A stretch of 22,234 bases of DNA from a virus. The DNA lies in the IMG/VR virus record IMGVR_UViG_3300020578_006482, positions 1 through 22,234 of that record. The stretch is one strand, 5' to 3'. Positions 1-22,234 of the stretch are shown piece after piece. A model generated the notes under the pieces. That model saw nothing but the letters and a program-made list of their open reading frames with translations, ran no database searches and had not been told where the DNA came from. Position numbers and translations under genes: made by a program. Position 1 is the stretch's first letter. Each line of letters opens with the position of its first letter.

Positions 1-1582
1 CGATCTCTTCGCGTTTCTGCTTGTCGGCCTCCTTGTTGGCTTCCGCTTCTCGGATCATTCTTTCTATGTCCTTGTCGCTGAGGCCGCTGTTGGCCTGTAT
101 CTGTATCTTCTGTTCCTTGCCAGTGCCTTTGTCCTTGGCGCTGACATGCACTATGCCATTGGCGTCGATGTCGAATGTGACTTCTATCTGTGGCACGCCT
201 CTTGGGGCCGGTGCGATGCCGGTGAGTTCAAAGTTGCCCAGCAGCTTGTTGTCTGCGGCCATCTCCCTCTCGCCCTGGAACACCCTCACGCTCACGGCTG
301 GCTGATTGTTTTCTGCTGTGCTGAACACCTGGCTTTTCTTTGATGGTATTGTGGTGTTCTTGTCGATCAATCTAGTGAACACGCCACCCAGCGTTTCTAT
401 ACCAAGTGATAGCGGTGTCACATCCAGCAACACCACGTCCTTGACATCGCCCTGCAACACTCCGCCCTGCACGGCCGCTCCCAGCGCCACGACCTCATCT
501 GGGTTGACGCCTTGGTTTGGCTCCTTGCCGAATAGATTTTTCACTGCTTCCACTACCTTGGGCATCCTGGTCATGCCGCCCACCAGCAGCACTTCCTGTA
601 TGTCGCTGGTCTGCAGTTCCGCGTCCTTGATTGCTTGTTTGCAAGGTGCTATTGTTTTTTGAATGAGATGTTCCACCAATGACTCCAGTTTGGCCCTGGT
701 GATCTTCATGTTGACGTGCTTTGGACCGGTCTTGTCTGCTGTGATGAACGGCAGGTTTATCTCGGTCTGTGCTGATGATGACAGCTCGATCTTGGCTTTC
801 TCAGCTGCCTCCCTGATTCTCTGTATTGCCAGCCTGTCTGTTTTGAGATCCACGCCGGTGTCTTTTCGGAATTCCGCTATGATGTGATCCTGTACCACTG
901 AGTCAAAGTCCTCTCCGCCCAGTGCTGTGTTGCCATTGGTGCTCTTGACTTCGAACACCCCGTCGCCCAGTTCCAGTATGCTGATGTCGAACGTGCCCCC
1001 ACCCAGGTCATACACCGCTATGGTCTTGGCTTCCTTCTTGTCCATGCCATACGCCAGTGCGGCTGCTGTGGGTTCATTGATGATCCTCAACACTTCCAAT
1101 CCTGCGATCTTGCCTGCGTCCTTGGTGGCCTGCCTCTGTGCGTCGTTGAAGTAGGCTGGCACAGTGATCACTGCCTTGCTCACGGTCTGCCCCAGATATT
1201 TCTCTGCGGTCTCTTTCATCTTGGACAGCACGAATGAGCTGATCTGCGGCGGCGAGTACTTTTTGCTGCGGCTTTCCACCCAGGCATCTCCGTTGTCTGC
1301 CCTGATCACTCGATATGGTAATTTTTCTATGTCTTTCTTCAGCGCGGGGTCGTCGAAGGTTCTTCCTATCAGACGTTTCACGGCGAAGAACGTGTTCTCG
1401 CTGTTGGTCACGGCCTGCCTTTTGGCCGAATGTCCCACCAGTTTTTCACTCTCAGTGAACGCTATCACCGATGGAGTTGTTCTGTATCCTTCTTGGTTTT
1501 CTAGTATCTTGGGATTTTTGCCATCCATTATGGCCACGCACGAGTTCGTGGTGCCCAGGTCTATACCTATAATTTTGCTCAT
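1..1582 (-). CDS. dnaK: Hsp70 chaperone DnaK (3' end beyond the window)
   Basis: ATP-dependent Hsp70 chaperone that folds client proteins with DnaJ and GrpE in the cytoplasm. The reverse-strand reading starts [15 protein letters not shown], the phosphate-1 motif of the ATPase domain. It continues with the family signatures [21 protein letters not shown] and [11 protein letters not shown], then the substrate-binding domain ([28 protein letters not shown]). About 527 codons lie in the window; a typical DnaK has about 640, so roughly the last 110 residues (helical lid) are outside. The frame is open throughout. The ATG is preceded by a strong GGAGGAAA ribosome-binding site, which fixes the start. 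It lies downstream of bS21 but has its own perfect late-type promoter and a hairpin leader. The sequence is of ordinary bacterial type, which suggests acquisition from a host. Whether a partner DnaJ or GrpE exists nearby cannot be seen. Confidence 0.97.
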
Positions 1583-1602
1583 CGCATTTCCTCCTATTGT
1601 TA

Positions 1603-1644
1603 AGCAAGGTTGTATCAGACAGCCCTTTTAGGCACTGCCTTGCT
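1603..1644 (-). promoter_or_regulatory. Hairpin in the dnaK leader
   Basis: Arms AGCAAGG (1644-1638) and CCTTGCT (1609-1603) are perfect complements, with a second shorter stem (CAG...CTG plus CC/GG around a UAAAA loop) inside. The outer arm starts two bases after the late promoter box; the GGAGG site begins about 8 bases after the 3' arm and is not itself paired. It could protect the 5' end, act as a temperature- or protein-sensitive leader, or attenuate read-through from the bS21 gene. It is not the CIRCE operator (TTAGCACTC-N9-GAGTGCTAA). Confidence 0.55.
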
Positions 1645-1646
1645 GT

Positions 1647-1654
1647 TATTTATA
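1647..1654 (-). promoter_or_regulatory. T4-type late promoter for dnaK
   Basis: An exact TATAAATA on the minus strand, the consensus late promoter box of T4-like phages, read by the gp55 sigma factor with the gp45 clamp. In T4 this box covers about -13 to -6, so transcription would start near 1641 and give a leader of about 60 nt before the dnaK ATG. The motif is short, but its exact match and placement between genes make it convincing. Confidence 0.65.
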
Positions 1655-1726
1655 CAACTTAATATAGTGATTGCGGTGAGATTTTACGACCTTTTTACCA
1701 AAAAAAAATTCAAGTATTTCAAACGC

Positions 1727-2041
1727 TTATTTTTTACGCTTCAAAGTCCATGGATATGCTTCTTCCACCCACCTGCGGGTGGCCCTGCGCTTGGCCAGCA
1801 TGGCCTGCTTGCGTGCTTCTCTGCGCTTGGCGCTGCGTGGGGTAAAAGTTTCTCGCTCGCGCATCTCCTCGAACACCCTGTTCTCCTTCATCATGCGCTT
1901 GATCTTTCTGTATGCCTTGATTGCGTCACCACCCGGTGGCACATCCACGTAGTAGCCTCGGAAGCGTCGCTCCCTGTTACCATCCCTGCGATCGTCGGAC
2001 CGCATAGTGTTATTGTATATTTTGTTTGCTATGTTTTTCAT
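1727..2041 (-). CDS. rpsU: Ribosomal protein bS21, long phage form
   Basis: Small-subunit ribosomal protein that sits near the 3' end of 16S rRNA, where the anti-Shine-Dalgarno sequence lies. Residues about 38-90 ([19 protein letters not shown], then [29 protein letters not shown]) match the bS21 core. The protein has 104 residues against about 70 in bacteria: there is an arginine-rich N-terminal extension ([14 protein letters not shown]) and a basic tail ending KRKK. The chosen ATG lies inside the 3' end of clpX (32-base overlap). A TTG one codon earlier and a later ATG at 2005, just past the clpX stop, are alternatives. bS21 is among the ribosomal proteins most often found in phages; it probably joins host ribosomes and biases initiation. 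Confidence 0.88.
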
Positions 2042-3263
2042 CAACCTTGTTTTTAAATATTAGCACAGGATCCGCTCCTGCGTCAATGCAGTTCTCTGTG
2101 ATCTCTACCTTGATCACGCCCTTATTGCGCATTTCGTGTGCATCAAATTGATAGGGCAACAGGGTTGTGTCCAGTATGCTCTTCAATCCTCGTGCATTGG
2201 TTCCCAGTTCTCGTGCTTTTTTGGCAATGGCCAATTTGGCTCCCTTGGTCAGGCTGAGTTCTATATCATCCAAACCAAATAGGTATTGGTACTGCTTGAC
2301 CAAGCTGTTCTTGGGTTCCGTCAGCACGCTGACCAATTGCAGCTCGCTTAGGTTGTTCACATGCGTGACCATGGAAAACCTGCCCACGAACTCGGGTATC
2401 ATGCCATATTTGATTAGATCCTCGGGCTTGACTTCGGACAGAAAACTATTGCCTTCCTTCCTGCCTATCTCGGCACCAAATCCCATGCCGCCAGAGTGTT
2501 TCCGCTCTAGCTGCTTCTCCAGGTCAGTGAAAGCACCACCCACTATGAACAGTATGTTGCGTGTTTCAATCTCAACCATATTGCCATCCGGGTGCTTCCT
2601 GCCGCCGTGCGGAGGCACGCGGCACAGTGTGCCCTCCACTATTTTCAATAGTCCCTGCTGCACTCCCTCGCCAGAAACGTCTCGGGTGACGCTCACGCCC
2701 TCGCTCCTCTTGGCTATCTTGTCTATCTCGTCTATGAACACTATGCCCTTCTCTGTCATCTCCTTGTCGCCCTTGGCCGCGTTGTACAGCTTGCTGATCA
2801 CGTTCTCCACGTCATCGCCCACGTAGCCCGACTCTGTGAGGCTGGTGGCGTCGCTGATGGCGAATGGCACGCTGAGGTATTTGGCTATGGTCCTGGCCAG
2901 CAGCGTCTTGCCGGATCCCGTGGCGCCCAATATCAATACGTTGCTTTTCTCCAGTTCAAAATCTTCCGGCGGCATCATGATGCGCTTGTAGTGATTGCTC
3001 ACTGCCACGCTCATCACTGTCTTGGCATGGTCCTGCCCCACCACGTAGTCATCCAAGAATTCCTTTATCTTGACAGGGTTGAGCAGCTCGCCGCTTTTGA
3101 CCTTTTCTTTCTTGATCTTGACGTTGTCTTCCTCCAGTATCTCGTTGCATAGATGTATGCACTCGTTGCAGATGGACACCTTGTTGGCTCCCACTATCAT
3201 CTTGGTGACGTCTTTCCTGCTTTTGCTGCAGAACGAGCACGTGAGGTTTTCTTCGCCGCTCAT
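2010..3263 (-). CDS. clpX: ATP-dependent unfoldase ClpX
   Basis: AAA+ unfoldase that threads proteins into ClpP or remodels complexes. Seen in order: an N-terminal zinc-binding domain with C9, C12, C32 and C35; Walker A GATGSGKT (113-120); pore loop GYVG (146-149); Walker B with DEID (178-181); the RKH loop (222-224); and a sensor-2 region TNARGL. Its 417 residues equal the usual bacterial length. The ClpP-docking tripeptide, normally IGF, reads MGF (260-262), so docking to host ClpP is still plausible. No clpP is in the window, so it must use host ClpP or act alone. The start is one base after the stop of the preceding gene with no visible ribosome-binding site, which implies translational coupling. 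Confidence 0.96.
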
Positions 3264-10211: not shown

Positions 10212-11009
10212 ATGTCATTTAAACCTTTAGATAATCTTAATGGTAAAATTATTGTAGTTACCGGCGGTGGAGCCGTGGCAAGAGCTACAGCTAAAAAATT
10301 AAGTGAATATGGGGCCACTATTATTTTGTTAGCAAGAAATAACATAGAAGAATTACAATCTTATTTGAATACATTAGGAAGTAATCATAAAGTCATTTAC
10401 GTAGATATTTTAAAGACAGACACCATTAAACATGCAGTCGAAATCGTAAAAGAAAAATTTAAAAAATGTGACATATTAATCAATACCGCAGGTAGAAATA
10501 GGATTATGACTTTAAAAAATTTATATGAACTAACAGATGATATATTTGATGAAATTATGTTAACAAACACCAGAGGAACTTTTTCCATTATCAGAGAATT
10601 TCATGAGTTATTATCAATAAGTGGAGATAGTTTGATAGTTAATATTTCAAGTATTTCTCCAGCTCGCTCTATTGCAACCTATGGGGTAAAAGGTTGTATG
10701 GCTTATGGTGCTAGTAAAGCAGCTTTGGATTATCTAACCAAAGCATTGGCTCGAACATTGGCTCCTAACATTCGTGTTTTAGGTATAGCTCCTGCATATC
10801 TATCATCTGGAGGAACTTCGGGTGGTACTGATAAATCTGATATAAAAAAAGAATCTTTTTTAGAACACATAAAAAAAGAAACTGCAGCATCACCATTGGG
10901 AAGATTACAACATCCAGATGATGTAGCAAACGCAATTAAAAGTCTTGCCATGGATATACGTTTTGCGACAGGTAGTACTTTTGTTGTCGACGGGGGAAGA
11001 TTAACTTAA
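10212..11009 (+). CDS. Short-chain dehydrogenase/reductase (SDR)
   Basis: NAD(P)-dependent oxidoreductase with a Rossmann fold, 265 residues. Seen: the nucleotide-binding loop VTGGGAVARATA (a variant of TGxxxGxG), NTAG (about 91-94), the catalytic serine in NISSISPAR (about 144-152), Y165 and K169 in YGASK, and the typical C-terminal GSTFVVDGG. The stop and the next gene's start share one base (TAATG), so it is co-translated with the beta-keto acid cleavage enzyme. The simplest role is oxidation of a 3-hydroxy acid to the 3-keto acid that the next enzyme splits. The gene is visibly more AT-rich than the surrounding phage genes, which suggests separate origin. No convincing promoter was found in front of it. 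Confidence 0.92.
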   Translation: MSFKPLDNLNGKIIVVTGGGAVARATAKKLSEYGATIILLARNNIEELQSYLNTLGSNHKVIYVDILKTDTIKHAVEIVKEKFKKCDILINTAGRNRIMTLKNLYELTDDIFDEIMLTNTRGTFSIIREFHELLSISGDSLIVNISSISPARSIATYGVKGCMAYGASKAALDYLTKALARTLAPNIRVLGIAPAYLSSGGTSGGTDKSDIKKESFLEHIKKETAASPLGRLQHPDDVANAIKSLAMDIRFATGSTFVVDGGRLT

Positions 11010-11887
11010 TGAATAAAAAAACAATTATTACCTGCGCAATAACAGGATCATGGACAACCGCAGAACAAACTCCATACCTACCAATTACTCCAGAACAGAT
11101 TGCCAATTCAGGATTGGAATCTGCAGAAGCTGGTGCGGCCGTGTTGCACATTCATGTTAGAGATCCTCACACTGCACAATCGTCTATGAGTCTGGATCTT
11201 TATAGGGAAGTGATTCAACGTATTAGAGAAAAAAACAAAGAGGTATTATTAAATGTTACAACAGGACCTGGAGCTACCGGCCCATCTAATGTAGTTTTTG
11301 GAAAAACCTATGAAAGTTTTTGTGAGCCATGGCGTCGAGTTGAACACATAATGAAACTACGTCCAGACATATGCACGTTAGATCTCAATGTAATGAATAG
11401 GGGCAATGATAAGATCACTGTCAACAGTGTCAGAGTGGTGAGAGAAATGGCAGGCATCATCAAAGCTGCAGGGGTCAAACCAGAATTGGAAATTTTCGAC
11501 AGTGGTGATTTACACATCGCCAAGATGCTGATCGACGAAGGCATAATAGAAAACCCACCCCTATGGCAGATCTGCACAGGAGTGAAATGGGGATGGCAGT
11601 CCAGTGTGGACACGTTAGAATATGCAAAGAAATTGTTACCACAGGGAGCCAATTGGTATGCTTTTGGTATTGGCGCATGGCAGATGCCTTTTGTGGCATT
11701 GTCTACGATCAGTGGCGGCAACGCCAGAGTGGGATTGGAAGATAACATCTATATAGAAAAAGGAGTGCTGGCAAAGAGCAATAGAGAATTGGTGGAAAAA
11801 GCTGTGAGAATTGTGAAAGATCTAGGAGGAGGGATAGCCACCCCTACAGAAGCAAGAGAAATTTTAAAAATTAAACAAAGGTCATAA
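11009..11887 (+). CDS. Beta-keto acid cleavage enzyme (BKACE, DUF849)
   Basis: Zinc enzyme that condenses a beta-keto acid with acetyl-CoA and splits it to acetoacetate plus a new acyl-CoA. Visible: CAITGSW at the N-terminus, the zinc ligands H47 and H49 in LHIHVRDP, GPGATGP, DLNVMN, GVKWGWQSS, WYAFGIGAWQMP and the third zinc ligand E244 in RVGLEDN. The length of 292 is normal. The acidic residue that follows ITG in the lysine-pathway enzyme Kce is Ser14 here, so 3-keto-5-aminohexanoate is an unlikely substrate. The N-terminal third is AT-rich like the SDR gene; from about 11350 the base use resembles the phage genes. Co-translated with the SDR, so they probably act one after the other. Confidence 0.92.
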   Translation: MNKKTIITCAITGSWTTAEQTPYLPITPEQIANSGLESAEAGAAVLHIHVRDPHTAQSSMSLDLYREVIQRIREKNKEVLLNVTTGPGATGPSNVVFGKTYESFCEPWRRVEHIMKLRPDICTLDLNVMNRGNDKITVNSVRVVREMAGIIKAAGVKPELEIFDSGDLHIAKMLIDEGIIENPPLWQICTGVKWGWQSSVDTLEYAKKLLPQGANWYAFGIGAWQMPFVALSTISGGNARVGLEDNIYIEKGVLAKSNRELVEKAVRIVKDLGGGIATPTEAREILKIKQRS

Positions 11888-11908
11888 TATAAGCATATAT
11901 AATTATAA

Positions 11909-12025
11909 ATGAACAAAAAAACAACAATTATCATTACAATCATTATTTTTTTTGTTATAATGGCCTTGTTGTTTCCTAGCGAGTCATATCTTAAGGCTCT
12001 GATGCAGGGAGGAGGCGGGTTTTGA
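11909..12025 (+). CDS. 38-aa single-span membrane peptide
   Basis: A short ORF starting MNKKTTIIITIIIFFVIMAL and ending MQGGGGF: two lysines, one strong membrane helix (about residues 5-22), then a short polar tail. The tail codons double as the Shine-Dalgarno sequence (GGGAGGAGG) for the next gene, and its TGA overlaps that gene's TTG start. A possible -10 box (TATAAT, 11898-11903) lies five bases upstream of the ATG but has no good -35. Function unknown; coupling to the next membrane protein suggests a small complex. Confidence 0.55.
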   Translation: MNKKTTIIITIIIFFVIMALLFPSESYLKALMQGGGGF

Positions 12026-12255
12026 AACAAGAGACCAACCCATACATCAAATGGTTTCTCACTTTCCTTATGTTCTGTGGGGCCATCACCACGAGCCTTC
12101 AGCTACACATATTATCCGGGCTATTGTTCCTGGTAGCAGGCAACCTTGGCTGGGCTGTGGTCTTGATCAGGATGAGAGAATACGCGGCGGCGGTGGTGTT
12201 CATAATCATGGGCAGTGGTTGGTCAATGGGTTTAATAAAATATTTCTTTTTCTAG
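12022..12255 (+). CDS. 77-aa small membrane protein, TTG start
   Basis: Three hydrophobic segments (around residues 10-26, 29-51 and 54-77: WFLTFLMFCGAITTS, LSGLLFLVAGNLGWAVVLI, AAAVVFIIMGSGWSMGLI). The start is TTG, chosen because AGGAGG lies six bases before it and because it overlaps the preceding stop by four bases; the first in-frame ATG would remove 16 residues. It lies between BKACE and the dioxygenase, one base before the latter, in a unit that also holds a transporter. A helper of uptake is conceivable. No family recognised. Confidence 0.7.
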   Translation: MKQETNPYIKWFLTFLMFCGAITTSLQLHILSGLLFLVAGNLGWAVVLIRMREYAAAVVFIIMGSGWSMGLIKYFFF

Positions 12256-12256
12256 C

Positions 12257-13264
12257 ATGCGAGCAAATATAAATCTCATACCAAGAAAAGACGTGCAATA
12301 TGATATATGGTGCCCCATGGCCCTTAGCATCAAACCATCTCCGGACCCAACGATCAACGCCGTGGAAAAAGAATGCCTGGAGAATTTCCAATCTGTGGGC
12401 AAATCAGAGCACATAGAGATCTATAACAACGGAGAGCCACCTGCATGGGGAGAGCGTGTGTCGGGCATATTAAAGAAGCATGGTTACGAGCATGTGACAG
12501 TTCATCCGGGACAGGATCGAGCGTATTTCAAAAACCCTTCCAAATTGTTTCCCGACCAAAGGAAACCCTATAGAATGCAACCTATAGGTGATCTCATGGG
12601 GAAGATACAAAAGATATTTGATTTTTACAAGACCCAGACATGGAAGATCGAAGAACCAAAAACTGGAGTGTGCGGCCACTACTACAGAGGCAGGATGTTG
12701 TGGACGCAGGTGCAGAAGGGATATGATCCCGGCCACAGCGCAAATGAACCTTTGATGACAGAGATGAAAAAGCTCTTGGAGCCCACCACCAATATGGTTA
12801 AGCAATTCTTAAAGGACAACAACGTAAAGATGAAAAATCTAGACAGGAAGATCACCCTCCGACTGTTGGATTACGTAAACAAGGACAATCTGAATTCCAA
12901 ACTGGCCACGCATCTTGATGCCAGCCTATTGACAGGACTACTGTATCACGATGCTCCCACATTGTACACTGTGGATTTTACCGATGACAGTTTGACCATA
13001 GCTAATTCTGTACAGAGAGACATCAGTGATCTGGTGTCCGCGGGCAACTGTTTCTGGGTGCCTGGCTACGTGTACGCAGACGAGATGAAGAGCTATGTGT
13101 CCCCAAACTGGCATGGCGTGCAGGTGCCGGATCACATCACTAGACGTCTGAGCATGGTGGTACGCGTGGAATGTGAATTGGTTCACAATGGCACGAAGGT
13201 GAAGATGCCAGGATACTACTGGAATGATGAATTCAAGACATGGAGTAAAAAAAATGAAAGCTGA
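12257..13264 (+). CDS. 2-oxoglutarate/Fe(II) oxygenase, IPNS-type
   Basis: Non-heme iron oxygenase, probably a hydroxylase or desaturase using 2-oxoglutarate and O2. The iron triad is visible as H219-x-D221 (ATHLDASLLTGLL) and H286 (PNWHGVQV). It is followed 11 residues later by R297-x-S299 (RRLSMVVRVE), the co-substrate motif of the isopenicillin-N-synthase/plant-dioxygenase type. The gaps between these residues fit that family and the 335-residue length is normal. The N-terminal half (about 1-190) has the family's substrate-side helices but no sequence I recognise. The start is one base after the preceding stop and the end overlaps the transporter gene, so it is part of the island. The substrate is unknown. 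Confidence 0.75.
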   Translation: MRANINLIPRKDVQYDIWCPMALSIKPSPDPTINAVEKECLENFQSVGKSEHIEIYNNGEPPAWGERVSGILKKHGYEHVTVHPGQDRAYFKNPSKLFPDQRKPYRMQPIGDLMGKIQKIFDFYKTQTWKIEEPKTGVCGHYYRGRMLWTQVQKGYDPGHSANEPLMTEMKKLLEPTTNMVKQFLKDNNVKMKNLDRKITLRLLDYVNKDNLNSKLATHLDASLLTGLLYHDAPTLYTVDFTDDSLTIANSVQRDISDLVSAGNCFWVPGYVYADEMKSYVSPNWHGVQVPDHITRRLSMVVRVECELVHNGTKVKMPGYYWNDEFKTWSKKNES

Positions 13265-14522
13265 AGATAAGAAAATATTAAAGGTCACCGCGGCCAGCGG
13301 ATTTGGCACTTTTTTTGAATGGTATGATTTCCTGCTATACGCCACTGCCACTGCGCTGGTTTTCAATAAAATATTCTTTCCAACGGGAGATGCCGCCGTG
13401 GGCATCATACTTTCAATAGCAGTGTTTGCGGTTGGCTACATTGCGAGACCCTTGGGAGGTATACTGTTTGGACACTTTGGTGACAGGTATGGCCGTAAGT
13501 CCATGCTGATGGCCACCACGATACTGATGGGAATAGCCACCTTTGCTATCGGACTACTGCCAAGCTATGCATCCATAGGAATCTGGGCCCCGGCCTTGCT
13601 TGTGTTCCTGCGGATTCTGCAGGGTTTGAGCTTCGGTGGTGAGTGGGCCGGAGGCAGCCTCATGATATTGGAGCATGCTCCCGCCAAACACAGAGGTTTC
13701 TTCGCCAGCTTTGTCCAGATCGGATTCCCCTTGGGTTCGCTGGCAGCAGTTGCCAGCTTTTGGTTGGTCAATAGATTTTTCGAAGCAGATTTCTTGAATT
13801 GGGCTTGGCGCATACCATTCTTGTTCAGCGTGGTACTGATCGCTTTTGGCATCATGATCAGATCTAGATTGCCAGAGACTCCGGTATTTGAGAATCTCAA
13901 GAACAATAATAAAATAGTAAAATATCCAATAGTGACTGTGGTAAAAGATGAGTGGAGATCACTGCTGCTGGGCATTGGCATCAAGACTCCAGAGATTGCG
14001 ATCGCTTACCTTAGCGCGGTGTTCTTTCCGCTGTGGGCAGTGACCAATCTAGGAATGAAGAGAGGTGACATAATGGACGTGATCTTGACTGCTTATTTTG
14101 TCGCTTTGCTCATAATACCTTTGACAGCACACATCAGTGACTTGTTGGGGCGAAGAATAATTTACATAGTTGGATACGTGTCTATGATAATTGTATCATG
14201 GCACATGTGGACGGCACTGGCAGCAGGCAATATATTCTGGCCGCTGATGTATGGCGTCTGCATCGCTGCGTTCATGTTGGCTCCGCTGGCTGCTTTCCTG
14301 CCTGAAATGTTCAATTCGCAAACGCGATATACCGGAGCGGGCGTAACCAATCAGGTGGCCGCTGCATTGGGTGGTGGCGTGGTCCCATTGGTGGCCACTA
14401 CCATAGCCGTAAAAACTGGCAGTCTGGCCAATATTGGCTATCTGATGTTAGCGCTGGCAGTAATCAGCTTGATCTGCACTGTGCTGGCAAAAGAGACACA
14501 CAGAAAAGACCTAGGTAATTAA
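13254..14522 (+). CDS. MFS transporter, metabolite:H+ symporter (MHS) type
   Basis: Inner-membrane symporter of about 12 helices. The N-terminus SGFGTFFEWYDFLLYATA is the hallmark of the MHS group (ProP, KgtP, ShiA and similar importers of betaines and organic acids). The loop motif GHFGDRYGRKSM (MFS motif A), the GGEWAGG stretch and LPETPVFE are also typical. 422 residues from the chosen ATG. Two earlier in-frame ATGs exist at 13224 and 13227, but GGAG stands nine bases before 13254, and this start removes a hydrophilic extension. It overlaps the oxygenase gene by 11 bases and its 3' end overlaps the convergent 102-aa gene by 12. It likely imports the substrate of the neighbouring enzymes. 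Confidence 0.92.
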   Translation: MKAEDKKILKVTAASGFGTFFEWYDFLLYATATALVFNKIFFPTGDAAVGIILSIAVFAVGYIARPLGGILFGHFGDRYGRKSMLMATTILMGIATFAIGLLPSYASIGIWAPALLVFLRILQGLSFGGEWAGGSLMILEHAPAKHRGFFASFVQIGFPLGSLAAVASFWLVNRFFEADFLNWAWRIPFLFSVVLIAFGIMIRSRLPETPVFENLKNNNKIVKYPIVTVVKDEWRSLLLGIGIKTPEIAIAYLSAVFFPLWAVTNLGMKRGDIMDVILTAYFVALLIIPLTAHISDLLGRRIIYIVGYVSMIIVSWHMWTALAAGNIFWPLMYGVCIAAFMLAPLAAFLPEMFNSQTRYTGAGVTNQVAAALGGGVVPLVATTIAVKTGSLANIGYLMLALAVISLICTVLAKETHRKDLGN

Positions 14523-15540: not shown

Positions 15541-15752
15541 TTCTTACCTTTAAGAATTTCTTTGGGGGTCTGGGTGCCCGGCATCAGTTTACTCAATCTG
15601 CAACTAAACAATTTTTTTGGACCTTTGTTTGTAATTATAACAGGTTGTCCATTTTCGTCAATTGAAATATCTTTGATAGTGGCGGTAACATTACGGAATC
15701 TGCCCACCTCCACGGAGTCTCCGACGTGTATTTCAAATTTAAATGATTTCAT
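15537..15752 (-). CDS. 71-aa small beta-barrel-like protein
   Basis: The pattern HVGDSVEVGRFRNVTATIKD ... ENGQPVIITNKGPKKLFSCRL is a run of short strands like an SH3/KOW-type barrel, followed by a basic tail (KEILKGKK). This fold is common in RNA- or ribosome-binding proteins, so a link to the translation genes in this operon is possible; that is inference. It overlaps the aldehyde dehydrogenase end by 14 bases and the 59-aa gene by four. Confidence 0.75.
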   Translation of the reverse strand: MKSFKFEIHVGDSVEVGRFRNVTATIKDISIDENGQPVIITNKGPKKLFSCRLSKLMPGTQTPKEILKGKK

Positions 15753-17115
15753 TTCCGTAATTGATACACACAGTTGTTCTTCTCATGTATTGTTTCCAGC
15801 TGTCAGAACCAATCTCCCTGCCACCACCGGTTTCCTTTTCTCCCCCAAATGCAGCTCCTATTTCAGTACCATGTGTTCCCACATTGACGTTTATGATGCC
15901 ACAATCAGATCCTGTGGCCGATATGAACCATTCGGCCTCTTGTACCGAATCAGTAAAAATACTGCTGGACAATCCCTGTCTCACAATATTATTCATTCGA
16001 ATGGCATTGTCTAATCCAATATATTTCAATACATAAACGATCGGAGCGAATGTTTCACTTCTAACTAAATCACACTGTTCTTTCGTTTCTACAATAGCTG
16101 GTCTCACATAACAGCCTTGTATGATTTCTCCTCCATGCACTGTATGACCTTTACCACGACACTGTGATAATATATCTTGCATCTTGCTGACGGCATCAAG
16201 ATCAATCAGCGGCCCCATCAAATTTTTATTGTCCATGGGATCACCCACAGTGATTGATTTATATGCTGATAATAATCTATCCAATACTTTTTCGTAGATC
16301 GAAGCTTGTATCATTACCCTTCTCACCGTTGTGCATCTTTGTCCTGCGGTCGCTATGGCACTTGATACAATTGCTTTCACTGCCAGATCTATGTTGGCTG
16401 TGGGAGCAACTATTATGGCATTATTTCCACTTAACTCATACAGTCCTCTGCCCATTCTAGCAGACACCCTAGGAGACAATGACTTGCCCATCTCTGTGGA
16501 TCCTGTGGCACTCAATAGATGGACCCTGGAATCATCCGCCATCCATTCTGCCTGTTCGTTGCCTCCTTCTATTATCTGCAACAGATCCTGTAGATGAAAT
16601 CTATTACCTTGTGTGTGTCTAATTTTATTATAGGACAAAAATTCCAATATGGATTGATCCCATATTTCTTTGCATTTGCGAGCAACATTATTACTTCGTG
16701 GCGATGGCTTCCAAACCACAGAATTTCCACACACTATTGCGAGCACATGATTCCATGCCCAGACAGCACATGGAAAATTGAAAGCAGATATCACTCCTAC
16801 GATTCCAAGAGGATGCCACATTTCCTTTAGAGTGTGATCTTGTTTTTCCGACGGCATGGTCAATCCATACAGCTGTCTGGACAATCCCTGTCCAAACTCG
16901 CACATCTCGATTGCATTGAACACCTCTCCCAATGCTTCTTTGTATATTTTTTTAGAGTCACTGGTGATTAGTTTGGCCAATATCTCTTTGTTTTGAAATA
17001 ACTTCAAACGAAATATCCTTATTAATTTTCCTCTGATGGGGGCAGGCACGTCTTTCCATATATCCTGTGCGTCACGTGATCTGTTTATTATTATATGATA
17101 TTCCCTCTTGTCCAT
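15739..17115 (-). CDS. NAD-dependent aldehyde dehydrogenase, ALDH7-like
   Basis: Oxidises an aldehyde to the acid. Catalytic C261 in TAGQRCTTVRR, general base E227 in LYELSGNNA, the conserved Asn in AFNFPCAVWAWNHVLA, and the cofactor loop SATGSTEMGK are all present. The C-terminal GREIGSDSWKQYMRRTTVCI matches the ALDH7 (alpha-aminoadipic semialdehyde dehydrogenase, antiquitin) signature. 458 residues against about 500 in the family; the shortfall is mostly at the N-terminus. ALDH7 enzymes also accept betaine aldehyde and other amino-aldehydes. The gene starts one base after the ligase stop without a clear ribosome-binding site. It is somewhat more AT-rich than the ligase, which hints at insertion into an older replication operon. 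Confidence 0.9.
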   Translation of the reverse strand: MDKREYHIIINRSRDAQDIWKDVPAPIRGKLIRIFRLKLFQNKEILAKLITSDSKKIYKEALGEVFNAIEMCEFGQGLSRQLYGLTMPSEKQDHTLKEMWHPLGIVGVISAFNFPCAVWAWNHVLAIVCGNSVVWKPSPRSNNVARKCKEIWDQSILEFLSYNKIRHTQGNRFHLQDLLQIIEGGNEQAEWMADDSRVHLLSATGSTEMGKSLSPRVSARMGRGLYELSGNNAIIVAPTANIDLAVKAIVSSAIATAGQRCTTVRRVMIQASIYEKVLDRLLSAYKSITVGDPMDNKNLMGPLIDLDAVSKMQDILSQCRGKGHTVHGGEIIQGCYVRPAIVETKEQCDLVRSETFAPIVYVLKYIGLDNAIRMNNIVRQGLSSSIFTDSVQEAEWFISATGSDCGIINVNVGTHGTEIGAAFGGEKETGGGREIGSDSWKQYMRRTTVCINYGNEII

Positions 17116-17116
17116 A

Positions 17117-18397
17117 TTACATTTTTTCTCCCTTGTCGAATCCCCGGAATCTCAGAAATCTCGGAAATCGCAAAGAATACTCGTCCACGGCATCTTGGTT
17201 CTGCGTGATGGCATCTGCCCGAACTTCCACTATCTGCCCTATCAATTTTTTTGTGTCCTTCCAGAATGTCTCACGATCCTCGTCGGTCAATCCTGATCCC
17301 ACGTTGGTCTTAATAAACTTGCCATCGTCCTTGCCCTCAACTATGAGAGCTCCCAGCTTGCCTTGGTTCCTGCCCGTGCCCTCCTCAACGTCTATCACCT
17401 TCAAACTGACTTCTATGAAGGGTTTGACCTTAAGCCACAGCGAGGATCTCTTGCACTCATAAACCCCGTCCTGTGGTTTTATCATGATGCCCTCGAAACC
17501 TTTTGCAATGCATTGCTTGTTGTAGTTCATGAACTTGTCATATTCTTTGTCCAGGTCTAATTCTACGCTTTCCACCAAACGCATATTTTCCCCAAATTCA
17601 AATGAAGCCAACCATTTCTTCCTCTCGGCCAGTGTGTTTGCGCAACCGCCCTTGGCAAATTCATTCAACGGCATGCAATCGAACAGATTCAACACCGCGT
17701 CCTCGGTCTTGGCATCTCCCTTCCTGTGTATCTGCCTCATGAGGCTCTGGAAGTCCGCGCTCATGATCTCGCCGTCGAACACCCAGCTCTGATCTAATTC
17801 GTCGATCATGTTCTCGAACTGTGTGTTTATGTGCGGAAAGTTTGTGAGCTCCTTGCCGTTCCGGCTCATCAGCACTGCTTCATTTTTTGCCTTGTCGCAG
17901 ATTGCGATGACTCTCACGCCGTCCAGCTTGGGCTCCACGAACACCTTGCCCTTCATCTTGCCCTCGTGCTTCTTGCTGTCATCCGCCAGCATGCACTCGA
18001 ACACCGGCACCTTTATCCTGCTAAATTTATTGATTGTTTTTTCTGTTACCCCACATCTAAGATCCTTGATCAGTATCCTGCGATACCAGTGGTTCCACTC
18101 GTCCTTCGTGGCCAATGATCTAAGATGGTCCACCCTGTCTCTGGCAGCGTTGCCGGTCAGCGTTCTCTTTTCCAGCTGATCCGCAGTGCCAAGGAACGTG
18201 TCCCAATCCAGTCCGGGGCCGTCCTGCTTGCTCTCTGGTACCTGTTTGAGTCCAAAGGTACGCAGCTTGTCCATGGCCATGCTGACGCCATCGAAAAATT
18301 CTGTGTTGTTATTTTTGTCCTCTCGAGCGATCACGCTTTCCTTGAACTTGCGAGAGTTATCGCTTTCCAGCTCTTTTATGATCTTGTGTGGCACCAT
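17117..18397 (-). CDS. ATP-dependent DNA ligase, T4 gp30-like
   Basis: Seals nicks in replication and repair. The nucleotidylated lysine is K157 in VEPKLDGVRV (motif I, KxDG). WVFDGEIM (motif III), KGFEGIMIKP (motif IV) and SSLWLKVKP (motif V) follow, then the OB-fold domain with VRADAITQNQ near the end. The N-terminal 130 residues form a helical domain as in T4 ligase. 426 residues, slightly shorter than T4 gp30. The perfect promoter ends ten bases before the ATG, giving almost no leader. It is the first gene of an operon that continues through aldehyde dehydrogenase and IF-1. Confidence 0.93.
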   Translation of the reverse strand: MVPHKIIKELESDNSRKFKESVIAREDKNNNTEFFDGVSMAMDKLRTFGLKQVPESKQDGPGLDWDTFLGTADQLEKRTLTGNAARDRVDHLRSLATKDEWNHWYRRILIKDLRCGVTEKTINKFSRIKVPVFECMLADDSKKHEGKMKGKVFVEPKLDGVRVIAICDKAKNEAVLMSRNGKELTNFPHINTQFENMIDELDQSWVFDGEIMSADFQSLMRQIHRKGDAKTEDAVLNLFDCMPLNEFAKGGCANTLAERKKWLASFEFGENMRLVESVELDLDKEYDKFMNYNKQCIAKGFEGIMIKPQDGVYECKRSSLWLKVKPFIEVSLKVIDVEEGTGRNQGKLGALIVEGKDDGKFIKTNVGSGLTDEDRETFWKDTKKLIGQIVEVRADAITQNQDAVDEYSLRFPRFLRFRGFDKGEKM

Positions 18398-18437: not shown

Positions 18438-18986
18438 TCATTGCTTTACCAAAAGATAATCCATGTTTCGCGGTTGATATGCTCCCAGGCAGGTATAACC
18501 CATGGATCGCAACATTTCAACAGCATCCAGGTTGCCTCTGTTTTGCTCCACGATTATTACTGGCCATGATCTCTCTATGGTTTGCATTGAACCCTTGACA
18601 GCTTTGGTCTCGAATCCCTCCACGTCGTATTTTATCAGTCCAACCTGGGAGATATTGAAACTGTCCAGGGTCCTGATAGGCACCATAACAGTGCCTCGCT
18701 CCTTGATCCTGCCAACTCTGGTGCTGTTGGTGTAGGTGGTCCTTTCGCTATCCCCGATGCCCACCACTGTGTAGATATACTTGTGCATGCTGGACACGTG
18801 CCGTTGGAATTCCTTTGTCTTGTCTCTGAAGTCAAAACAATGTATCTTTTTGAAATCAGACTCCAGGTTCATCGCAAATTGTCCCTGTCTCGCTCCCACG
18901 TCTATGGCAGCGGTGAAATTTCTGATGTAAGGCCTTGCCCATTGATAAACTTCTCGGCAGTGAGCTATCTTGCTATGATCGGCCAC
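18438..18986 (-). CDS. FkbM-family methyltransferase
   Basis: SAM-dependent methyltransferase, 182 residues. The SAM loop is DVGARQGQFA (29-38). RTLDSF (105-110) and LIKYDVEGFETKAVKGS (117-133) are the diagnostic FkbM motifs. Family members are usually O-methyltransferases acting on sugars or natural products; a nucleic-acid or nucleotide target has not been shown. The start codon is GTG, overlapping the end of the CTP-synthase-like gene by 14 bases; no earlier start fits. It is the last gene of the four-gene operon. Confidence 0.88.
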   Translation of the reverse strand: MADHSKIAHCREVYQWARPYIRNFTAAIDVGARQGQFAMNLESDFKKIHCFDFRDKTKEFQRHVSSMHKYIYTVVGIGDSERTTYTNSTRVGRIKERGTVMVPIRTLDSFNISQVGLIKYDVEGFETKAVKGSMQTIERSWPVIIVEQNRGNLDAVEMLRSMGYTCLGAYQPRNMDYLLVKQ

Positions 18987-19617
18987 GATATATGGATCGC
19001 GCCAGTTTCTTGCCGCAGTCTCCCAGCCCGTTGATGTGCCACACTATCCTTTGTCTCGGCACGCCGGTGAACAGGGCTATCTTTTTCAGCTCATCCTCGC
19101 CTAGTTCTTTGTCACTCTTGAGGCACAGAGCGAAGGGCATGATGCCCATACGCATCAGTTCCTTCACAGAATGCTGCACGGGCTTGGTCTTGATCTCGCC
19201 TGCGGCTCTAAGATAGGGCACAGGAACATACATCACGATCCTGACATTTTCTTTGAGGGTCATCTCCCGCACGGCCTCTATGGCCAATTGGTTCTCTAAG
19301 TCGCCCACGTTGCCGCCTATCACTGTGACCGTGTTATTGGCCCGCGTCTCCACGATCCAATTCCTGATCTCCTCTGTGATATGTGGAGTCACCTGCACCG
19401 TTCCTCCATTGTATCGACCCATCCGCTCCTTTTCCAGCACCTCTGCGATGATGTGTCCCACTGTCTTGTATCCTGCCGTGATCTTCTTGCTGACGTTGAG
19501 GCAGGGATCTAGATACTTGTATTCTGCCTTGCCACTGCATGATTTCTGTATTGCTTTTGCCAGCTCCACTTTGTCCACTGCGGAGTGTACCCCGTTCAAT
19601 ATGATTGTGTGGATCAT
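18973..19617 (-). CDS. Truncated CTP-synthase-like protein (UTP-site domain only)
   Basis: Clearly related to the N-terminal amidoligase domain of CTP synthase: KYLDPCLNV (34-42), LEKERMGRYNGGTVQVTPHI (61-80), IGGNVGDLEN (100-109), GEIKTKPVQHSVKEL (140-154) and KIALFTGVP (179-187) line up in order with PyrG. It has only 214 residues against about 545. The whole glutaminase domain is absent. About 35-45 residues after LDP-NV, which hold a catalytic Mg2+ aspartate, are deleted. The second Mg2+ ligand (Glu before IGG) is Val here, and the P-loop is degraded (HSAVDK in place of SSLGKG). The motifs lining the UTP/CTP site survive. CTP synthesis is therefore unlikely; nucleotide sensing, interference with host CTP synthase, or a new chemistry are possible. 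Confidence 0.85.
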   Translation of the reverse strand: MIHTIILNGVHSAVDKVELAKAIQKSCSGKAEYKYLDPCLNVSKKITAGYKTVGHIIAEVLEKERMGRYNGGTVQVTPHITEEIRNWIVETRANNTVTVIGGNVGDLENQLAIEAVREMTLKENVRIVMYVPVPYLRAAGEIKTKPVQHSVKELMRMGIMPFALCLKSDKELGEDELKKIALFTGVPRQRIVWHINGLGDCGKKLARSIYRGRS

Positions 19618-20177
19618 GCTTGTATTGTATTATCTTTTATAGAATTGTCAATGCCCAGCATTCGGAAATGATCTTCTATGCTCCATGTGCCTAGGTCGAT
19701 GATCTCTCCTCGCAAATTCTTGATCTGTTTGGTAAATCCCGCCAATTTATATCTCTTGAAAGGATGTTCCCAAGTGGCATTGTATTGCCACTCTCCTTCC
19801 AGTGTGTGTTTGTCACAGTCGGCGATCATGCACAAGGGCATGTGTATGGCCTCCATGGCAGTGATGTGATCTTCTAGATAGGCCTGCAGTATCTTGTTTT
19901 GTGGTATTGGATGCTCCAGATGGGCCTTGCCATCCGTGTACCCTTCGGCGGTGTAGTGTGCAGGTCCCGGACATCTTTCTTTCTGCACTTCTCTGAGATA
20001 TCTCTGCAGGAAATAATAAAATTTACCTTTGACCTCTTTGTCAACGTTGGTGCTCAAAAGATCATTCTTGAATCTATCCAGCGCAGCACACTCCGCTGCC
20101 AGCGACACCTTGCTGGCGGATCGGAACTGGACCCGACCCACGAGAGCCTGATCCAGTTTGCGAAATCGTTCCAGCAT
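19614..20177 (-). CDS. Unknown 187-aa protein of the ParB/CTPS-like operon
   Basis: I do not recognise the family. The N-terminal half is helical (KGKFYYFLQRYLREVQKE). The centre has a His/Cys-rich stretch: ERCPGPAHYTAEGY, AHLEHPIPQNKILQAYL, MPLCMIADCDKHTL. The spaced His and Cys could bind metal; HLEHPIP is faintly like HNH-type motifs but lacks the rest. It is coupled to the ParB-fold gene before it (TGATG) and to the CTP-synthase-like gene after it (ATGA), so the three products are made together. Confidence 0.75.
   Translation of the reverse strand: MLERFRKLDQALVGRVQFRSASKVSLAAECAALDRFKNDLLSTNVDKEVKGKFYYFLQRYLREVQKERCPGPAHYTAEGYTDGKAHLEHPIPQNKILQAYLEDHITAMEAIHMPLCMIADCDKHTLEGEWQYNATWEHPFKRYKLAGFTKQIKNLRGEIIDLGTWSIEDHFRMLGIDNSIKDNTIQA
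19624..19651 (-). promoter_or_regulatory. Sigma70-type promoter, leaderless, CTP-synthase-like gene
   Basis: TTGACA (19651-19646), a 16-base spacer and TACAAT (19629-19624); six bases (ACAAGC) then ATG. It lies inside the 3' end of the 187-aa gene, so the CTP-synthase-like protein and methyltransferase can also be made without the first two genes of the operon. Confidence 0.8.
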
Positions 20178-21280
20178 CAGGCCGCTCTCTTGATGAATGG
20201 CTTGAATTCCGAACAGATGTCTCCCGTCATTATTCCCATAGACACCTTGGGCTCATGAGGGGGATTCCACATGTTGTCCTTGTGCGCCTGCACTATGAAC
20301 ACTTCTCTCATCAGTGTGCTCATGGCCACTGGAGCGTCCCAAGATGTGCCTCGGGTGTGCTGCCACTGTGCCTTGGCTGCTGTGTGTATGCCCTGTGCGT
20401 TGAAGCCACATACCTTGGTGAGGGCTTCCAATATGAGGTCTATCCAATTTTCTGGCAAGAACTTCACTGCGCCATCTTCCTTGGCCAGAGCATACATCTT
20501 GACCAATCCTATGTACAGGCCTTGGTTGATCTCTCCCCCCTGCTCTTCTCCATAGTATTTCTTCACGCTGAGTAATATTTTTTTAAGCGTCTCTAAATCT
20601 CCCGTCATTTCAAGTCCCTTGTAGGCGTAGTCAAAATGTGAGAAGTAGTGTTTGTTGGGTCCGCATTTGCCTGACGACTTTCTTACTCGTTTTGGTTCGA
20701 GATCTATGGCACATTCCTTGAACAATGTGTCCACGAGATAGGCATTCTTGACTCTGGGATGGTTCCTGTCCCCCGTGCCATTCACGTCATTGTGCCATCT
20801 GTAGATCAATCCCCTGTGTATCTCTTCTGTGCCTGCTTTCAATATGCCAGTGTCATTGAGTATCTCGAACGCCACCGCGTCAAATGATTGCTCCTTGGTC
20901 TCAACCCAGGTCAATGGCACGCAAGTGAACCCCATAACCGACAGGGCCACCGCGGTGTGTTGACCATTGAACAGATACCATGAGTCTCCTCTCTTGACTG
21001 ACGAGCCTGGTTGCACCACCCTGGGATCAAATTTCTCGCAGATCCTTAACACATGATTGTCTCTGAGATCTCTCTGGATGTTGTAATCACAGTATATCCT
21101 ATCTAGAGGAACCTGTTCCACTCCACGTGGCAACACCATCTCTGGATCCTTTTGCAAGTTCTGCCATCTGGCCCTTGCTTCTTTTAGTCTTGTTTTGAAA
21201 TTAGGGATATCTCCTGACTCCCCTGCTTTGTGGAACTCTTCAACCACTTGGCTGAGAGCTTTTATTTTGTCCGTAGACAT
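20177..21280 (-). CDS. ParB-fold phage protein
   Basis: A 367-residue protein with a ParB/Srx-type N-terminal domain at about residues 54-120: VEQVPLDRIYCDYNIQRDLR, then a helix, VVQPGSSVKRGDSWYLFNGQ and HTAVALSVMG. The usual G(E/H)RR-type signature reads NGQHTAVAL, so the arginines tied to CTP binding in ParB are missing. The remaining 240 residues (KRVRKSSGKCGPNKHYFSHF, NQGLYIGLVKMYALAKE, TAAKAQWQHTRG) are unfamiliar. The ribosome-binding site AAAGGAG precedes the ATG. The long leader begins with a hairpin. It leads the four-gene operon with the CTP-synthase-like protein. It may bind DNA or nucleotide, or act as a ParB-type nuclease. Confidence 0.75.
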   Translation of the reverse strand: MSTDKIKALSQVVEEFHKAGESGDIPNFKTRLKEARARWQNLQKDPEMVLPRGVEQVPLDRIYCDYNIQRDLRDNHVLRICEKFDPRVVQPGSSVKRGDSWYLFNGQHTAVALSVMGFTCVPLTWVETKEQSFDAVAFEILNDTGILKAGTEEIHRGLIYRWHNDVNGTGDRNHPRVKNAYLVDTLFKECAIDLEPKRVRKSSGKCGPNKHYFSHFDYAYKGLEMTGDLETLKKILLSVKKYYGEEQGGEINQGLYIGLVKMYALAKEDGAVKFLPENWIDLILEALTKVCGFNAQGIHTAAKAQWQHTRGTSWDAPVAMSTLMREVFIVQAHKDNMWNPPHEPKVSMGIMTGDICSEFKPFIKRAA

Positions 21281-21419: not shown

Positions 21420-21722
21420 CTAAACTATCAATGGACTTTTTGGCACAGTTTTAATTGGGCTGACAGCATTAGTGTATTCAGTGACCACCTTGTCCAGGCA
21501 AGGGCCTATGGCCACCACAGCAGACCTGTTGATGGTCATACCGTTGGTGTTGTCCAAAGTGGGCACGAAAGCCCCAAACGCCAGTCCCTGCTGGCTGATC
21601 ATGATCACCACTGGCCTGTCCAAGGTTATGGTGTGCTCATCCTGCGCTAAAATCTTGGCCACCACTTCTTCACCGGTGTTGATCTTTATAGTCGCTATGG
21701 TATTATTTTCTGGTATTTTCAT
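21420..21722 (-). CDS. 100-aa small beta-barrel (Sm-like) phage protein
   Basis: The pattern IATIKINTGEEVVAKILAQD, EHTITLDRPVVIMIS and GLAFGAFVPTLDN reads as a run of strands like an Sm/Lsm barrel. Related small proteins with TGEE-V-A and a PVVI-M strand recur, to my memory, in marine T4-like phages with no known function. No membrane segment. The C-terminal 25 residues (SPIKTVPKSPLIV) look disordered. A promoter lies eight bases before the ATG, with no room for a ribosome-binding site. Confidence 0.75.
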   Translation of the reverse strand: MKIPENNTIATIKINTGEEVVAKILAQDEHTITLDRPVVIMISQQGLAFGAFVPTLDNTNGMTINRSAVVAIGPCLDKVVTEYTNAVSPIKTVPKSPLIV

Positions 21723-21770: not shown

Positions 21771-22234
21771 CTAATATTCTGACTTGATGTGCGGCAACAC
21801 GAACTGCATGCCCAGCCAGCGGAATTGGCCGTCGGTGTCTTTGTATGAACAGTTGACCCTGCCGGTGCGAGTGATATATGGCTTCAGCACTTGCACATGC
21901 ACGCGATCCTGTGACCTCACGCTCACAGCCGCCGCGTACCACTCGTCGCCATGATGTGTGAAGCAGCTGATACGGCCTGCGGGTATTCCCGGCGCCAGCA
22001 CCAGCTCAATCTCTGGTGGATTTCGGAACTTGGTCACGCGCTTGTCCTCTGGCAGTATCTCCAACACGGGCAGGGGCTTGGAGTTAAGCACCTCGGCGAA
22101 TCGATCTGCCTTGCCCCAGTTCTCGTTGATGGGGAACCTGGGCAGCTCCAAGCGATCCTTGAGGCTGTCCATCACGCCCGAGTGCTGTCCGAAAGCCAGG
22201 CGGAAGCCCATGCTCTTTACTATGTTCTTGAATT
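21771..22234 (-). CDS. Polysaccharide deacetylase, C-terminal part (5' end beyond the window)
   Basis: The reading frame is open to the window edge, so the N-terminal catalytic (NodB-like, CE4) domain would lie outside. What is seen resembles the C-terminal section of marine polysaccharide deacetylases: MGFRLAFGQHSGV, then LPRFPINENWG-ADRF, then SKPLPVLEILPED and a beta-rich end (NPPEIELVLAPGI, FRWLGMQFVLP). These blocks follow the strand-ending GQxSG and PRFPMNE patterns I know from the family. An internal ATG at 22211 is unlikely to be the true start because the homology already begins there. Deacetylation of host surface glycans could help adsorption or entry. The call rests on remembered patterns. 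Confidence 0.65.
   Translation of the reverse strand, partial: FKNIVKSMGFRLAFGQHSGVMDSLKDRLELPRFPINENWGKADRFAEVLNSKPLPVLEILPEDKRVTKFRNPPEIELVLAPGIPAGRISCFTHHGDEWYAAAVSVRSQDRVHVQVLKPYITRTGRVNCSYKDTDGQFRWLGMQFVLPHIKSEY

Follow-up and report, generated by a model that had tools for sequence, protein, structure and literature searches.

A probable GmrSD-like gene pair and a compact pseudo-CTP synthase as probably separate units in the genome of an uncultured large myovirus

Type IV restriction enzymes of the GmrSD type combine a ParB/Srx-fold NTPase (nucleoside triphosphatase) of the DUF262 family with an HNH nuclease of the DUF1524 family, a composition that is also known from BrxU and SspE, and GmrSD uses a nucleoside triphosphate (NTP) to cut DNA that contains glucosylated hydroxymethylcytosine (hmC). 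Here, we examined an interval of four genes in the IMG/VR virus record IMGVR_UViG_3300020578_006482, a sequence of 22,234 bases that was analysed as a whole and is hereafter referred to as the window. These genes encode a ParB-fold protein (PARB), a probable HNH nuclease (UNK), a protein resembling cytidine triphosphate (CTP) synthase (CTPS-like) and an FkbM-family methyltransferase (FkbM), all of which are listed in Table 1. An earlier, sequence-only reading had presented the four genes as a candidate system acting jointly. Our analysis rather suggests, with a probability of roughly 0.66, that the interval is composed of two independent units, namely a PARB+UNK nuclease pair and a pseudo-CTP synthase, with the FkbM gene as an accessory.

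This view is supported first of all by the distribution of the genes over other viruses. Viral contigs were scanned with PARB, UNK and CTPS-like queries and the results were assembled in one uniform gene-context table, in which related viral contigs are denoted by L-numbers. PARB was located just upstream of UNK and on the same strand in all 45 viral contigs that have UNK, the two genes usually being adjacent or separated by one short gene. Beyond the viral contigs, the wider genome collection yielded UNK in four metagenome-assembled contigs only, again with PARB beside it. The CTPS-like gene was found in 10 contigs (the window, L002-L008, L087 and L093). Directly upstream of it lies UNK in the window, L002, L003 and L007, and PARB in L008, where the gene order is PARB-CTPS-UNK. 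In the other five (L004, L005, L006, L087 and L093), a glycosyltransferase-like gene (weak match, 351-360 aa) replaces the PARB+UNK pair, and no PARB homologue was found on these records, which are fragments, one of them of 41.7 kb. About 40 contigs carry PARB+UNK without a CTPS-like gene. The gene following the CTPS-like gene is FkbM, a 69-aa open reading frame, UNK or the DNA ligase, and the ligase is present downstream wherever the contig reaches that far, be it directly or after one to two small genes, FkbM or UNK. FkbM separates the CTPS-like gene from the ligase only in the window, L002 and L087 (3 of the 9 informative contigs). The complete quartet is confined to the window and L002, and on this co-occurrence pattern we rejected the quartet as one system. 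PARB and UNK form a conserved unit, the CTPS-like gene is an independent neighbour, and FkbM is accessory, replaceable cargo.

The joint action of the four genes had been deduced from their overlaps. These overlaps, of 1 nucleotide (TGATG), 4 nucleotides (ATGA) and 14 nucleotides, were confirmed, and all four genes are located on the minus strand. However, of the 23 pairs of neighbouring same-strand genes in the window, 10 overlap, and a 4-nucleotide overlap joins the CTPS-like gene of the relatives to an upstream glycosyltransferase-like gene, UNK or PARB, which are mutually unrelated. Since overlaps are common both in the window genome and in its relatives, we rejected them as a sign of coupling. 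Joint action stands for PARB and UNK, which always occur together, but not for the four genes.

These findings also bear on the view that the four genes constitute one CTP-controlled system, in which the CTPS-like protein would make CTP or hand it to a ParB-type switch working together with UNK and FkbM. Apart from the overlaps, it may be argued for this view that the PARB fold is closest to ParB structures with bound CTP or CDP (cytidine diphosphate), that a phage DUF6551 ParB-fold protein binds CTP (PMC12704722), and that the CTPS-like protein keeps a pocket for CTP and uridine triphosphate (UTP). We nevertheless consider such a system highly improbable: the quartet recurs in a single other contig, PARB+UNK and the CTPS-like gene mostly occur apart (the pair being absent from 5 of the 10 contigs with the latter), and the CTPS-like protein is unlikely to supply CTP, because its catalytic residues have been lost, as detailed below. 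The idea that a CTP synthase-like protein feeds a ParB CTP switch fails for this same reason.

The sequence-only reading had correctly recognised the ParB-fold, CTP synthase-like and FkbM proteins, as was confirmed by the structure comparison of PARB and by the CTP_synth_N and FkbM profiles. Its remark that the ParB domain lacks the usual arginines was likewise borne out, the GxRR motif of canonical ParB being replaced by NGQHT in the PARB of the window and by DGQHR in the other clade. The AlphaFold model of PARB (pLDDT 85.8) has a ParB/Srx fold, and its best structural match is ParB with CDP (7o0n; Z 7.7, rmsd 2.3 over 91 residues), besides Noc, sulfiredoxin, serine kinase and KorB (8qa9; Z 7.0 over 189 residues). 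The canonical ParB profile TIGR00180 did not match the PARB of the window and gave 0.058 in L036, far under the cut-off. QR (as QRD), [DN]GQH[TR] and FxxxN motifs are present in all 21 PARB sequences. QR, (I/V)DGQQR and FxxxN are the three motifs of GmrS (PMC4619093); those of PARB correspond to them with GQH[T/R] in place of GQQR, and are shared with DGQHR domains. Sub-threshold matches were obtained with DUF6551 (12 of the 21 members, E=3e-6 in the best), DGQHR (0.0085), DndB and DpdB, and one of the 21 members matched GmrSD_N (E=0.033). In the PHROG database, PARB matched ParB-like partition proteins. The only relatives in cultured phages were distant ones, in a Staphylococcus phage and in Sinorhizobium phage Phosso, the latter with a DGQHT motif. 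As phage DUF6551 ParB-fold proteins bind CTP or ATP (PMC12704722), NTP binding by PARB is likely, and by analogy PARB is probably the NTP-binding half of a GmrS-like pair.

The partner protein UNK contains a near-invariant LEH[VP]IPQN motif in 22 of 22 members (LEHPIPIN in one). Its model (pLDDT 87.3) passes through this region in the order helix-strand-helix-helix-strand-helix, which is the order reported for GmrD (PMC4619093). The first HNH motif of GmrD, (ILV)(ED)H(ILV)xPQ (PMC4619093), is present in nearly all UNK proteins, with P for I, L or V in part of the family. The second motif of GmrD, L(GA)NLxLLxxxN, is absent; UNK has MPLCxIxDxDKH instead, with H124 at the place of the last GmrD asparagine. 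PtuB HNH profiles matched 7 of the 22 members (best E 0.0036), a CRISPR-associated HNH profile matched one member (0.02), and GmrSD_C matched one of the 22 (E=0.094). Full-length hhalign comparisons of PARB and UNK with whole GmrSD gave nothing, but profiles cut to domains gave modest signals, UNK scoring 30.8 against the GmrSD_C domain compared to at most 22.9 when the columns were shuffled 40 times. No UNK match was found in cultured phages. Altogether, the motif and the model indicate that UNK is probably an HNH nuclease, and that the pair probably resembles a split GmrSD type IV restriction enzyme in its mode of action.

By analogy with GmrSD, PARB would most likely bind an NTP and either recognise DNA or license its cutting, and UNK would do the cutting, as GmrD does with GmrS. 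The pair would in this way most likely destroy non-self DNA during infection, either the host chromosome or the DNA of a rival phage. Alternatively, the pair might serve in genome handling or transcription control, with PARB as a ParB-like DNA clamp and UNK as its structural partner. Such a role would be in line with the best structural matches (ParB, Noc and KorB), with the PHROG assignment to partition proteins and with the lack of a solved-structure match for UNK, but the LEHxIPQN motif, the GmrD-like order of elements and the HNH profile matches of UNK make it unlikely.

A separate observation concerns the glycosyltransferase-like gene, which lies exactly at the place of PARB+UNK (L005 8922-10004, with equivalents in L004, L006, L087 and L093) and was not seen on a contig together with the pair. 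This pattern would fit a putative nuclease that attacks glycosylated DNA.

The similarity of the CTPS-like protein to CTP synthases lies in the amidoligase domain, with 40-45% identity over about 140 residues and scores far below the PyrG equivalog cut-offs. It ends at 214 aa, compared to about 545 for CTP synthase, and has no C-terminal glutamine amidotransferase domain. In addition, about 35 residues are deleted internally, among them H57 and D72 (residues are numbered by alignment to the 545-aa Salmonella enzyme, which was taken as E. coli numbering). In all 10 compact sequences, these two residues are deleted and K40 is changed to Y, T or S. The seven window-type sequences carry in addition the substitutions G17D, G19V, E140V and R211K, and K18 is kept, but within a broken P-loop. 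The phosphotransfer residues K18, K40, D72 and E140 correspond to K16, K38, D70 and E145 of the Drosophila enzyme, the activity of which is dramatically reduced by the substitutions K16A or K38A (PMC8325340). In contrast, the UTP/CTP-pocket residues D42, D147, E149, K187, T188, K189, Q192 and K223 are kept in 10 of 10 sequences, the first six of which have been assigned to UTP binding (PMC8325340). The gene is not decaying, as is evident from its median pN/pS value of 0.14 versus 0.15 for the adjacent DNA ligase gene, which reflects purifying selection. Since the glutaminase, the residues for phosphotransfer with ATP and Mg, and the ammonia gate have been lost and the pocket kept, the most likely role of the protein is to bind UTP or CTP but not to produce CTP. 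No CTP synthase pseudoenzyme was described in the literature that we searched.

A second compact form follows the DNA polymerase gene in T4-like phages that are nearest to Pelagibacter phage Mosig, with a 1-base overlap between the two genes (complete in L095, L104 and L106; Table 1). This polymerase-linked form is related (36-40% identical) and shows the deletion at an identical position, and it retains the lysine of the P-loop as well as G17 and E140. Compact CTP synthases thus occur in two or more lineages of large T4-like phages, and in both of these an Sm-like gene (phrog_527) precedes the compact gene (upstream in L095 in the case of the polymerase-linked form). In a tree with full-length CTP synthases, the compact sequences form a long branch, and this tree neither supports nor rejects a single origin of the two forms. 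No compact CTP synthase was confirmed in contigs of the genome collection with the search patterns used. Two seemingly phage-borne CTP synthases (H13 and H14) were rejected on account of a bacterial-type pyrG-eno context, and those of L098, L101, L102 and L146-L148 were set aside as full-length enzymes.

The compact protein might instead still be an enzyme, that is, a minimal amidoligase that depends on ammonia, has UTP, dUTP or a different pyrimidine nucleotide as its substrate and is encoded by an auxiliary metabolic gene. The strong purifying selection, the neighbouring DNA polymerase or DNA ligase genes and the residues kept in the polymerase-linked form would all agree with this. We regard this view as improbable, because K40 and D72 are gone from 10 of 10 sequences, the K38A substitution that is so detrimental in Drosophila concerns the equivalent of K40 (PMC8325340), and the form in the window has also lost G17, G19 and E140. 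As a pseudoenzyme, the CTPS-like protein could act as a sensor of pyrimidine nucleotides, or it could enter the CTP synthase tetramers of the host as a non-catalytic subunit and change their activity. The active sites of CTP synthase are built from three subunits, and CTP synthase proteins with an altered N-terminal domain can interfere with filament assembly in a dominant-negative manner (PMC5405848), which makes insertion into the host enzyme the most concrete hypothesis. More specifically, the protein would mimic a subunit in host tetramers or filaments through its amidoligase surface and CTP pocket, alter feedback inhibition or assembly, and thereby re-set the pyrimidine pool for phage replication; we put this forward as a tentative and rather doubtful proposal.

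It should be noted that several findings weigh against the explanation of the interval as a GmrSD-like pair plus an independent pseudoenzyme. UNK is without the asparagine of the GmrD LGNL motif, Foldseek found no match for it in the PDB, and its matches to HNH family profiles are individually weak. The same is true for the matches of PARB to GmrSD_N, and its domain-cut hhalign score of 26.7 exceeded the shuffle maximum of 23.1 by a slight margin. Furthermore, the IMG/VR contigs are fragmentary, so that PARB may be missing from CTPS-bearing records without being missing from the respective genomes, and the intact pocket and tetramer interface of the CTPS-like protein are deduced from sequence.

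The FkbM protein scores above the cut-offs of PF05050 (E=1.3e-08; 35.6 bits, cut-off 22.7) and TIGR01444 (40.3 bits, cut-off 37.7). Another view of the interval would be that of a base-modification cluster, in which the CTPS-like protein would be a ligase or amidase working on bases and FkbM a base methyltransferase. Such a cluster would be consistent with the glycosyltransferase-like gene in place of PARB+UNK in five contigs, with the sub-threshold resemblance of PARB to DpdB and DndB (DGQHR), and with a protein resembling TGT in one relative record. However, 12 records, one of them of 172 kb, contained no gene of the dCMP-hydroxymethylase/thymidylate-synthase family (PF00303), and modification of the hmC or hydroxymethyluracil type was dismissed on this basis. 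Moreover, the phosphotransfer residues that a ligase needs have been lost from the CTPS-like protein, and FkbM occurs sporadically, in three contigs only. A base-modification cluster is therefore very improbable, and the DNA-modification alternative offered by the sequence-only reading finds no support in the operon. The TGT-like protein (480 aa; L153 8214-9656, and 125213-126652 in the L016 record) has a DSGGYQ motif reminiscent of TGT/DpdA. It gave no Pfam or PADLOC match and has homologues in PA5oct-like Pseudomonas jumbo phages and in Phosso.

The 172-kb relative L016 has a DNA polymerase that is closest to those of two jumbo phages with alphaproteobacterial hosts, Sinorhizobium phage Phosso (49%) and Agrobacterium phage Atu_ph07 (44.5%), and the source of the window is an uncultured large T4-like/jumbo myovirus. 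Elsewhere in the window, a cassette encoding an SDR dehydrogenase, a beta-keto acid cleavage enzyme (BKACE), one further protein and an MFS transporter (10212-14522, plus strand) lies opposite to most phage genes and was not seen in related contigs; it looks like metabolic cargo. An aldehyde dehydrogenase gene adjoins the DNA ligase gene (15739-17115, minus strand) and is shared with L087 and, after another gene, with L019. The minus strand also carries dnaK, which was recognised by eye, and clpX (2-3263), both phage-borne, and a polysaccharide deacetylase gene that is cut by the window end (21771-22232) and complete in L005 (7484-8530).

Table 1. Genes of the interval, their neighbours and polymerase-linked compact CTP synthase genes. 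Coordinates refer to the window unless a contig is given.
Feature	Coordinates	Strand	Basis
PARB, ParB/Srx-fold DGQHR-type protein, 367 aa	20177-21280	-	AlphaFold fold, motifs
UNK, probable HNH nuclease, GmrD-like, 187 aa	19614-20177	-	LEH[VP]IPQN motif, model, weak profiles
CTPS-like, compact pseudo-CTP synthase, 214 aa	18973-19617	-	CTP_synth_N E=4.8e-39, residue alignment
FkbM-family methyltransferase, 182 aa, accessory	18438-18986, GTG start	-	PF05050, TIGR01444
ATP-dependent DNA ligase, constant downstream neighbour of CTPS-like	17117-18397	-	PF01068, phrog_114
Sm/Hfq-like protein, upstream neighbour	21420-21722	-	phrog_527
Polymerase-linked compact CTPS	L095 3666-4388		
Polymerase-linked compact CTPS	L104 262-984		
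Polymerase-linked compact CTPS	L106 1116-1826		
Polymerase-linked compact CTPS, partial	L097 4694-5152		

If these views are correct, a CTP synthase that was stripped of its catalytic parts and kept its pocket would clearly exemplify how a phage turns a metabolic enzyme into a regulator. Likewise, the GmrSD-like ParB-HNH pair, conserved in a group of phages, would mean that a type of nuclease best known for anti-phage defence is also encoded by phages themselves. The locus also calls for caution, since overlapping phage genes need not form one machine; what is conserved here is the pair and not the quartet.

Both units share features with known systems and differ from them in others. The CTPS-like protein shares the amidoligase domain and the eight pocket residues tested with CTP synthase (PyrG), and differs from it by the absence of the glutaminase, the D72/H57 segment and K40, as well as, in the window type, the P-loop glycines and E140. 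UNK resembles the PtuB HNH nuclease of Septu by the weak profile match of about a third of its members, but the partner of PtuB is the ATPase PtuA and not a ParB-fold protein. PARB has its best family matches in the DUF6551/DGQHR group, which includes DndB and DpdB; most PARB members are under the curated cut-offs, and an HNH partner falls outside those family definitions. As in GmrSD, a ParB/Srx protein with QR, DGQ[QH] and FxxxN motifs is combined with an EHxxPQ partner that has the GmrD-like order of elements, and this in the two-gene form of the original GmrS/GmrD. The present pair differs from GmrSD in that both proteins are below the Pfam GmrSD cut-offs, PARB has DGQH[T/R] rather than DGQQR and a C-terminal helical domain of its own, the LGNL asparagine is lacking in UNK, and the genes form a conserved phage gene pair rather than being part of a bacterial defence island.

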